A stretch of 50,231 nt of DNA from a bacterium (GTDB lineage: Bacteria > Patescibacteriota > Andersenbacteria > UBA10190): positions 1 to 50,231 of the forward strand of contig JAUYKA010000023.1 of the NCBI GenBank assembly GCA_030698495.1. The letters are read 5' to 3'. Numbering within the stretch: the stretch's first letter is position 1; every line of letters starts with the position of its first letter. Positions 31,681-34,466 of the stretch are shown here, one piece after another. The notes under the pieces are model-generated. The model saw nothing but the letters and a program-made list of their open reading frames with translations. It did not search any database and was not told the origin of the DNA. The position numbers and the translations under genes are program-made.

Positions 31681-31781
31681 ATCCCCATTATAACACGGAC
31701 TAGATACAATTTTCAATCAAAAAATGATTGGCTCGTTTATGTAGCGGGGGCCGGAATTGCACCGGCGATTTCTTGGTTATG

Positions 31782-32511
31782 CTTACTACTACAACTTTAG
31801 TTGTCCTGACTCATAATAGCCGGGTTTGTAGTCTGGACTGTCCCTTAGTCCGCTCATAATTAGCGGACTTCCGCCTACCAGTCTCTACACCTTCCCTAAA
31901 CCAACGTGGCTTAAGGCTTGGCTCGGGATTGCCTCGGATTATTTCCAGGGGTTTCCCCGAATTAGACGGATGATCTTCTTGATAATTACTTATCAAGACG
32001 CCCAAGTTCCAAACAATTGAAATTTATGTTACAATAAACAAACAGAATATTGTATGCAGTTCGTATCAGCACAAAGTGAGAGAGTATACAATGCCCTTCA
32101 TCCTAACGGCGACCCCTTTAATTACAAACCCTCAAAAAATCGAGAACTGGAAATTATGGGTTTGTTATTATGGGCAACCGAAGGAGATAAAACTCAACTT
32201 AGCTTAGCTAATGGCAACGCTTCCATTATACAGAAGTATTTAGAATTTCTAAGAAACGTCTGTCGTTTAAAAGAATCGCTCATTAGGGCAGTTATTCATT
32301 GCCACGATAGCACCTCGTATTCCGAATGCTTAAAGTATTGGTCCCAAGTAACACACATTCCGCCAAGTCGATTTAAAAAACCATTTATCAAACCAGATAA
32401 AGGCGGAAATCGAAACTACCCTTACGGCATAGTACGTGTTGTTGCTTGTAATCAAAAACTCCAATTGCTTTTCAAAGAACGGCTGACAAACCTTGGTTTG
32501 TCACTCCATTG
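31782..32511 (-). other. group I intron (IC3-like core) in the tRNA-fMet anticodon loop
   Basis: Minus strand reads AATTCGGGGAAACCCC...GGCAATCCCGAGCCAAGCC...GAAGGTGTAGAGACTGG...GGGACAGTCCAGACTACAAACC, matching P/Q/R/S core patterns; ends in G (omega-G) before CAUAACC. Confidence 0.85.
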
Positions 32512-32512
32512 A
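32054..32512 (+). CDS. LAGLIDADG-like homing-endonuclease-related protein, antisense within the intron
   Basis: ELEIMGLLLWATEGDKTQLSLANGNASIIQKYLEFLRNVC...AVIHCHDSTSYSECLKYWSQVTHIPPSRFKKPFIKPDKGGNRNYPYGIVRVVACN. Confidence 0.6.
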   Translation: MQFVSAQSERVYNALHPNGDPFNYKPSKNRELEIMGLLLWATEGDKTQLSLANGNASIIQKYLEFLRNVCRLKESLIRAVIHCHDSTSYSECLKYWSQVTHIPPSRFKKPFIKPDKGGNRNYPYGIVRVVACNQKLQLLFKERLTNLGLSLH

Positions 32513-32735
32513 GCCAAGCGAGATACTACTTCTCCACCCCGCGTTATTCGGCTTACCGCTTGCGTTTTCAAGCCATAATGCCAACTGCTATTATAAGCAA
32601 TTGAATAGGGAAGTGCAACCAAGGCGGGAAAATCGTGCCTAAAAAGCGGTTAATTAAAACTTTCATACTAAGTATGAAATAGCCAAAAACTTTTGACACT
32701 TTATCATAGTTATACCCTTGCTCAATAATCATATA

Positions 32736-32955
32736 TTTGGAACAGTGTAAGCAGGACAGTAGGAAAGGACTTGAAGCGTAACAATGCACACAAATCTCGT
32801 CTTTTGACTGCGTCCTAGAGGAGGTACCCTACATAGGGCTGGGCAAAATCGGGTGTTGACTCTGTTAGACATAAAGCGGTCAGCAGCAGTAAGCATCGGA
32901 TGAAAACCTAACCCTATAGGACTCAACAGCGCCCCACACGGGGCGTTGTTTTTTG
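32736..32955 (+). ncRNA. candidate structured RNA with terminator
   Basis: ORF-poor segment ending in cgcccc acac ggggcg ttgtttttt; internal pairings aggac.agt/act.gc.gtcct and tgttga/tcaaca; ttgaca at 32693. Confidence 0.35.
32929..32952 (+). terminator. intrinsic terminator
   Basis: cgccccacacggggcgttgtttttt. Confidence 0.8.
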
Positions 32956-33014
32956 TTACTTTCCAAAATGAGTTAGTCACGCTTTAGCGGGGCAACGAAT
33001 TTTGAGAAAAGTAA

Positions 33015-33270
33015 CAATCCCCCATAGCGCCGCCAAAGGCGGTGCGACGGGGGATTCATTAATAAAGCACAAACGATTTTTTAGCGAAAACAAAACCCCG
33101 CGTAGCTTTAGCGAAGTGGGGTCCGTTAATAGAGCAGGAGCAAAGTTATTTCAACGTGAGCCACGCATTTTGAGCGAAAATACCTGTCCCTCTGAAGCTT
33201 TAGCGAAGGGGGATAACCCCTCGAAGCTCCATCAAAAAACGGAGCGAAGGGAGATAATCCCCGTCGGTCG
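33015..33270. repeat. cluster of CCCC-(R)TA/GAA-GC...GC-GA(A/C)-GGGG hairpins
   Basis: cccccatagcgccgccaaaggcggtgcgacggggg; ccccgcgtagctttagcgaagtgggg; cctctgaagctttagcgaaggggg; cctcgaagctcc..ggagcgaaggg. Confidence 0.65.
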
Positions 33271-33311: not shown

Positions 33312-33383
33312 TAGCGGGGGTGGGGATCGAACCCACGACAAATCGGTTATGATCCGATTGCTCTACCACTGAGCTACCCCGCC
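33312..33383 (-). tRNA. tRNA-Met(CAU), elongator-type (or Ile2 before modification)
   Basis: GGCGGGGTAGCTCAGTGGTAGAGCAATCGGATCATAACCGATTTGTCGTGGGTTCGATCCCCACCCCCGCTA folds as a cloverleaf. Confidence 0.95.
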
Positions 33384-33470
33384 GCTTAAAATAAATTACC
33401 TTACCCAAGCTTGAATATCAAGCAATATAGTCGTTTCATTTGTGTTTGTAAACATGATATAATTTGTGTA

Positions 33471-34406
33471 ATGCAAGCCAAAGTTACAGAAAAACAAAAG
33501 GCGAGAGTCCTGCGCAGTCAAGGCAAAAGCCTGAACGAAATTGTGCATTTGGTAAATGTCAGTAAAAGCAGCATCAGTGTTTGGGTGCGTGATATTCAAT
33601 TGAAACCAAAACACATCGAACGTTTGCGGCAGAGACAACTTGAAGGCATAGCTAAAAGCCGGCCGACGCTTAACAAAATGTGGGCCGAGTATCACAAACT
33701 TCATCCCAAACCTGAACCCAAAGGTCCCCGCTGGCCTAAACGTGATCTGGAACATTTCTTCGATGAGTGGGCACCAAACATGGCTTACGTGCTGGGTTTC
33801 TTCGCCGCCGACGGCACGATGTATAAAAACAAACGCGGATCTTGCTACATAGGATTTTGCTCGGTTGAACGCGAGCAGATTGAGTTGATTAAAAAACTGA
33901 TAAATGCCGGCAATCAAATAGAATCTTACCAACCGCATCACGGCAACCGCCAAAAACGCCACACTCTGCAAATAGGCAGTAAGATGATTTATCAAAGATT
34001 AATAAATTTGGGATTTACACCAAATAAGAGCCTAACCATGAAATATCCCAATATACCGAATGAGGTACTGGGTGATTTTGTTAGAGGATATTTAGACGGC
34101 GATGGTTGCGTCAGTTTTAATGAATATTATTATCCGGATAGAAAAAAGATCAGACGCTGGGTTACTATCCGTTTTGTTTGCGGCAGTAAGAGCTTCTTAG
34201 CCGATCTTGCAAAGCAGCTACATCAGCAAGCAGGCGTTAATTTAGTGAAGGCGCCTAAAAGCGGGAGAGCATACAGAATTTCTTACAGCACCAACGATTC
34301 TAGACAATTGCGTAAATTATTGTATCCTAATTCTACAGTGCCGTGCATGCCCAGAAAAAGAAATAAACTGGAAATGGCGCTGAAGATTATTGGACCCGTA
34401 GCTTAG
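33471..34406 (+). CDS. LAGLIDADG homing endonuclease with N-terminal HTH
   Basis: HTH SQGKSLNEIVHLVNVSKSSISVWVRDIQ; two motifs LGFFAADGTMY and RGYLDGDGCV. Confidence 0.85.
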   Translation: MQAKVTEKQKARVLRSQGKSLNEIVHLVNVSKSSISVWVRDIQLKPKHIERLRQRQLEGIAKSRPTLNKMWAEYHKLHPKPEPKGPRWPKRDLEHFFDEWAPNMAYVLGFFAADGTMYKNKRGSCYIGFCSVEREQIELIKKLINAGNQIESYQPHHGNRQKRHTLQIGSKMIYQRLINLGFTPNKSLTMKYPNIPNEVLGDFVRGYLDGDGCVSFNEYYYPDRKKIRRWVTIRFVCGSKSFLADLAKQLHQQAGVNLVKAPKSGRAYRISYSTNDSRQLRKLLYPNSTVPCMPRKRNKLEMALKIIGPVA

Positions 34407-34466
34407 TTGGTCTAAAGCGCCGCCCTGTCACGGCGGAGATCGCCGGTTCGAGCCCGGTCGGGTCCG
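34392..34466 (+). tRNA. tRNA-Asp(GUC)
   Basis: GGACCCGTAGCTTAGTTGGTCTAAAGCGCCGCCCTGTCACGGCGGAGATCGCCGGTTCGAGCCCGGTCGGGTCCG. Confidence 0.97.

Follow-up and report, generated by a model that had tools for sequence, protein, structure and literature searches.

Group I introns that interrupt the initiator tRNA gene are known from cyanobacteria, having been described in Synechocystis and Gloeobacter (Biniszkiewicz 1994; Paquin 1997; both as cited in PMC8450103), and an fMet-specific intron endonuclease has been reported (Bonocora & Shub 2001, as cited in PMC3984707). An earlier note on the DNA considered here likewise associates such cyanobacterial introns with endonucleases. Introns of this kind have also been used to explain 36 bacterial genomes in which no fMet or Ile2 gene was detectable (PMC8450103). 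In the CPR bacteria, rRNA genes are known to harbour group I introns that carry LAGLIDADG genes, from a study whose main text deals with rRNA only and leaves tRNA unmentioned (PMC11270868), and tRNA group I introns are mentioned in passing, with no host gene, ORF or mechanism given (PMC8172020). Homing genes of the His-Cys type are carried antisense by nuclear rDNA L2066 group I introns (PMC9548176), and the collaborative homing of a free-standing endonuclease and an ORF-less intron has been reviewed (PMC3984707).

The window, a stretch of 50,231 nucleotides, contains an initiator tRNA gene that is split by an intron with an ORF on its opposite strand. The best reading of this locus, and on the sequence evidence a quite likely one, is that a self-splicing fMet intron has been colonised by a tRNA-specific homing-type gene.

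The split initiator tRNA gene and its intron

A complete initiator tRNA (CAU) with a 730-nt intron after U33 is encoded at 31742-32543 on the minus strand, and was called by ARAGORN in intron mode as tRNA-Met(cat) with an intron at position 33. The features of the gene and the intron are as follows.

32590-32618, minus strand: promoter-like TTGCAC-17-TATAAT, read from the sequence and below the scan threshold, some 47 nt before tRNA-fMet
32512-32543, minus strand: tRNA-fMet 5' exon (ARAGORN intron mode), ending ...CUUGGCU (U33), with a 97 % identical uninterrupted orthologue in genome G012
31782-32511, minus strand: group I intron, 730 nt, starting CAAUGG and ending GUAAG (terminal G)
32000-32005, minus strand: guide sequence UUGGGC, read from the sequence, pairing with exon GCU (32512-32514) and intron CAA (32509-32511)
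31789-32029, minus strand: core match to Rfam Intron_gpI (RF00028), spanning P2 to P9 and the full model 1-253, with 64.7 bits (gathering cut-off 50) and E 3e-14
31978-31997, minus strand: P2 hairpin CUUGAUAA-GUAA-UUAUCAAG, eight pairs
31847-31869, minus strand: P8 hairpin, in which most pairs show compensatory changes
31831-31841, minus strand: P7 3' strand ACAGUCCAGAC, its 5' strand lying at 31878-31885; five pairs, 100 % paired, one two-sided change
31742-31781, minus strand: tRNA-fMet 3' exon, CAUAACC...CCCCGCUA, CCA not encoded

The splice junction is placed at U33|C34 because the 5' exon ends in U, the intron has a terminal G and CA is repeated; the uninterrupted orthologues agree with this placement. 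The exons display the features of an initiator, namely the CAU anticodon, a C1.U72 mismatch that leaves 1:72 without a Watson-Crick pair, and A11-U24, while the anticodon stem (29-31/39-41) has two of the usual three G-C pairs. The D-loop AGUAGUA and T-loop UGCAAUU occur both in the fMet of the window and in tRNA-Cys (L028), so that the two sides of the usual G18-U55 contact are changed together. Eight relatives in the class share this double change in their fMet genes, with the T-loop UGCAAUU or UGCAAUC.

The intron was aligned with the two other fMet introns found in the class and with a fourth CAU-tRNA intron, from genome G081. In this four-intron alignment, the core blocks are near-invariant, the stems covary and two-sided changes are seen in 27 of the 60 predicted pairs. 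For the named structure, 14 of 44 pairs show two-sided changes, compared with 6.6 +/- 1.9 in shuffled alignments, and none of the 500 shuffles reached 14. In the core helices P3-P8, 90.9 % of cells are paired; in P2, all cells are paired and five of the eight pairs have compensatory (two-sided) changes. At the 5' splice site, P1 has a U.G pair, and only three exon bases are paired in it. The GGGC of the guide is kept in all four introns, which also share the 3' junction ...G|CAUAACC. Outside the intron, the anticodon-stem pair that it divides is U-A in the window and in G009 and C-G in most relatives, so that its two bases have continued to match across the intron.

By the covariance model, the covariation, the U.G and guide pairing and the terminal G, the fMet intron is, at the level of sequence, a group I intron, and it is predicted to be self-splicing. 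Much of what the earlier note had proposed from the letters is borne out here: both tRNA halves lie on the minus strand about 730 nt apart, the Rfam search places a group I core in the 3'-proximal stretch of about 250 nt, the core blocks that had been named recur in the three other CAU-tRNA introns, and the P2-like hairpin is real.

The gene was further compared across 12 other genomes of the class. It is uninterrupted in nine of them, which verifies the splice junction. In G004 and G011 it is split at the same site by introns of 426 and 240 nt, respectively, and no other fMet copy was found in these two genomes; in G010, which is 80 % complete, there was no fMet match. As read from the sequences, the P1 loop of the G004 intron holds a frameshifted remnant, in which pieces of the antisense ORF lie in different frames (ALNPHGIVRIVASNMKLVQHF and LFNISKERLAEIGLPQH, compared with YPYGIVRVVACNQKLQLLFKERLTNLGLSLH in the window), and the G011 intron has no ORF. 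An empty site, an ORF-less intron, a decayed ORF and an open ORF are the states to be expected if a homing gene enters, decays and finally disappears. The window locus and its relatives offer a natural series for the acquisition of a homing gene by an intron in an essential tRNA.

The antisense ORF

The intron ORF and the neighbouring genes that bear on its classification are located as follows.

32054-32512, plus strand: antisense ORF of 152 aa, contained entirely in the P1 loop, from the guide sequence side to the 5' splice site
33312-33383, minus strand: elongator tRNA-Met, the only uninterrupted CAU tRNA of the genome
33411-34406, plus strand: LAGLIDADG_3 ORF with an HTH and two LAGLIDADG motifs (Pfam LAGLIDADG_3 E 1e-7; I-MsoI E 2e-6), between the elongator tRNA-Met and tRNA-Asp
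34392-34466, plus strand: tRNA-Asp(GTC), overlapped over 15 nt by the 3' end of the LAGLIDADG_3 ORF

The stop codon of the intron ORF (TGA, 32510-32512) straddles the 5' splice site, its single exon base being the complement of U33 and the other two bases belonging to the intron, which agrees with the description in the earlier note of an antisense ORF ending at the 5' exon boundary. The same note had called the ORF LAGLIDADG-like. There is a remote match, in register, between a profile of the ORF family and the second LAGLIDADG motif of I-DmoI (LYVAEGDKT; E 7e-5 to 2e-4); the invariant Glu-Gly of the family aligns with AEGDK of I-DmoI, the catalytic Glu being kept. On the other hand, the ORF has no match in Pfam or NCBIfam, no LAGLIDADG appears among the families listed for 15 and for 34 of its relatives, and the profile of its domain compared with an alignment of true LAGLIDADG_3 proteins is insignificant (E 0.03). 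The AF2 model of the intron ORF is a complete domain (pLDDT 87.6), in which the order of elements differs from the alpha-beta-beta-alpha-beta-beta-alpha of the LAGLIDADG fold. Two AF2 models (pLDDT 84 and 88) gave no Foldseek match in the PDB at E<=1e-3, and their weak OmpA-like and IspF-like matches were rejected as chance. Since the models match no solved fold and the domain is insignificant against the LAGLIDADG_3 profile, the ORF is better described as a putative homing-type gene than as a recognised LAGLIDADG protein.

The bona fide LAGLIDADG_3 ORF of the window is the neighbour at 33411-34406 on the plus strand, which is not part of the intron. In 12 of 12 members of its group that were examined a tRNA adjoins the ORF, in eight cases tRNA-Asp, and they are distributed over several CPR families (L200-L210). 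Upstream of this neighbour lies an unannotated stretch (32720-32955, plus strand) with a strong terminator-like hairpin at its end (32925-32950) and no convincing Rfam match; a snoRNA-like match to RF02668 at 32949-33095 was rejected, having 24.5 bits against a cut-off of 55.

Most homologues of the intron ORF in the class (E 1e-14 to the nearest) have an HTH at the N-terminus and a length of about 220 aa. The window ORF is without the HTH domain that nearly all its relatives possess, and it occupies a long terminal branch of the family tree, for which reasons it may already be decaying. A scan of the genome contigs with the intron ORF alone as the query gave no match. It is possible, if somewhat doubtful, that the intron splices while its ORF, truncated and without the HTH, is carried along as a relic of no present function, as suggested by the missing domain and the long branch as well as by the state of the same ORF in the two class relatives, frameshifted in G004 and absent in G011. 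This is opposed by a frame that has stayed open over 152 aa, by the complete domain predicted by AlphaFold and by the retention of E43, G44 and K46, which are conserved across 34 family members. Moreover, homing enzymes of a single domain and similar size exist, for example I-CreI.

tRNA-linked ORFs and introns across the phylum

By homology (E 1e-14), the intron ORF belongs to a family of HTH-plus-GEG-motif proteins that was defined in this analysis and that is sporadic, being present in 104 of 382 genomes of the phylum. Of the best 30 loci phylum-wide, 29 could be read at the 3' end, and 28 of these have their stop codon within -98 to +40 nt of the start of a co-directional tRNA. In five of the 28 family loci the adjoining tRNA was itself called split, four having a group I match over the threshold. 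The window ORF departs from this rule, as it is antisense and ends at the border of the 5' exon and the intron instead of at the edge of a co-directional tRNA. Among the family loci (L129-L158, L219-L288), many have an offset of -10, at which the stop codon falls at tRNA positions 8-10.

The family tree follows tRNA isotype: 14 changes of isotype suffice on the 34-member tree, the minimum for 15 labels, whereas 300 shuffles required at least 20 (mean 23.4). When GTDB was scanned independently with the Gly(TCC) clade, 63 loci at >=38 % identity were recovered, and in all 61 that could be evaluated the nearest co-directional tRNA is tRNA-Gly(TCC), at a distance within -98 to +38 nt in 60 and at +166 nt in one. 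From tRNA density, about 0.3 % of random ORF ends would be expected to fall in such an interval (43 tRNAs, intervals of 139 nt, both strands). No match to the Gly(TCC)-clade protein was found in phages, and no description of tRNA-anchored, isotype-specific ORFs in CPR bacteria was found in the part of the literature covered. It is on balance probable that CPR bacteria carry isotype-specific, tRNA-anchored homing elements, each clade being linked to a single tRNA species across distant lineages, which end at or within the first tRNA bases and are sometimes accompanied by a group I intron. The antisense ORF would then be a member that moved into the fMet intron, a composite mobile intron forming from a tRNA-specific free-standing enzyme. 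With tRNA-Gly(TCC) adjoining 61 of 61 evaluable loci of one clade, spread over many CPR lineages, the family yields target-site predictions that are exact enough for bench testing.

It is also conceivable that the ORF aids splicing as a maturase, an activity possible for some homing enzymes (PMC11270868), or regulates the tRNA, which the tight tRNA linkage of its family could reflect, instead of moving DNA. This is unlikely, given that the same intron exists without the ORF in G011, that the family is so sporadic and that relatives of the ORF adjoin tRNAs without an intron.

Group I introns over the threshold are present in 127 of the 382 genomes of the phylum, and tRNA anticodon loops host 25 of the best 30. 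The tRNA-Asn introns of about 510-570 nt (L161-L164, L171, L172, L079, L086) carry sense ORFs that are HNH-type by their sequence motifs. In G081 (L184), a CAU tRNA has a 616-nt intron with an antisense ORF, likewise HNH-type by motifs, positioned like the ORF of the window intron; therefore, the antisense P1-loop arrangement appears to have arisen with at least two nuclease types. Introns assigned by ARAGORN to 'tRNA-Thr(tgt)' were set aside as mostly mis-spliced tRNA-Asn by the terminal-G logic. In the genome of the window, a tRNA-Thr(GGT) on contig C14 (about 29.7-30.6 kb; L073, L146) is split by a group I-like intron of about 200 nt, below the Rfam cut-off, and is overlapped by an HTH-GEG family ORF, an intact Thr(GGT) being present on contig C8. 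Four more group I intron matches are clustered on contig C34 (12460-15333), presumably in the 23S rRNA gene.

The lone initiator gene and comparison with known systems

The genome assembly comprises 1.16 Mb in 37 contigs and contains 43 uninterrupted tRNAs, the sole CAU tRNA among them being the elongator tRNA-Met. This small genome size, the phylum-level search and the named CPR relatives among the loci of the GTDB scan are the grounds on which the bacterium is assigned to the CPR. Since tRNA-Ile(UAU) is present, a CAU isoleucine tRNA is not needed. No second fMet gene was found in the 37 contigs, either with the spliced tRNA and the 5' exon as queries or in the tRNA listing; therefore, within the limits of the assembly, translation initiation appears to depend on splicing of the lone fMet gene, as the earlier note had anticipated for the case of a sole gene. 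It is very improbable that the split copy has become a pseudogene and that an assembly gap hides an intact initiator gene: an assembly in 37 contigs could miss a second fMet gene, and its tRNA set may be incomplete, as the 43 tRNAs also include no tRNA-Ser(GCT), which could be absent, split or in a gap, but completeness is estimated at 100 %, the exons are preserved and the stem pair compensated, and three genera carry the split gene only, at the same site.

In the preferred reading, that of a self-splicing intron colonised by a homing-type gene, the primary transcript would fold so that exon GCU and the bases that open the intron pair with the guide UUGGGC, an anatomy that is directly visible and from which catalysis is predicted. 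An external guanosine would attack U33|C34, the CA of the 3' exon would replace the 5' partner in the guide pairing (P10), and exon ligation would produce a normal fMet tRNA. Initiation of translation in this bacterium would depend on a ribozyme. The antisense P1-loop ORF is a putative homing-type gene from the HTH-plus-GEG family, whose other members adjoin particular tRNA genes at the 5' edge. The intron probably acquired this ORF after it had settled in the tRNA, and the ORF may serve, or may recently have served, the spread of the intron to uninterrupted fMet genes. Its nuclease activity, mobility and route of entry are deduced from sequence comparison. Placement in the P1 loop would keep the ORF off the catalytic core, and the antisense strand would separate its expression from the tRNA precursor. 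The relatives would represent other stages, those of the empty site, the ORF-less intron and the intron with a decayed ORF.

Like the cyanobacterial fMet introns, the window intron belongs to group I and interrupts the anticodon loop of an initiator tRNA, and the cyanobacterial endonuclease acts on the fMet anticodon region; the window differs in its phylum, in the unrelated family of its ORF and in the antisense position of that ORF in the P1 loop. The enzyme of the Synechocystis fMet intron is of the PD-(D/E)XK type. The Azoarcus tRNA-Ile(CAU) intron is likewise a small bacterial tRNA group I intron with a similar core, and in it, as in the window, three exon bases pair at P1; however, it has no ORF and lies in a different tRNA. 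The L2066 introns also carry a homing gene opposite to the intron strand, but they belong to eukaryotic rDNA, their nuclease is of another family and spliceosomal introns occur in the homing gene. The introns already reported from CPR bacteria share both the bacterial group and the intron class with the window (PMC11270868, PMC8172020). A further parallel is collaborative homing, in which free-standing enzyme genes adjoin the gene that hosts the intron and which has been proposed as a route to composite introns; whereas its known cases are in phages, the hosts here are bacterial tRNA genes and the ORF clades are isotype-specific.
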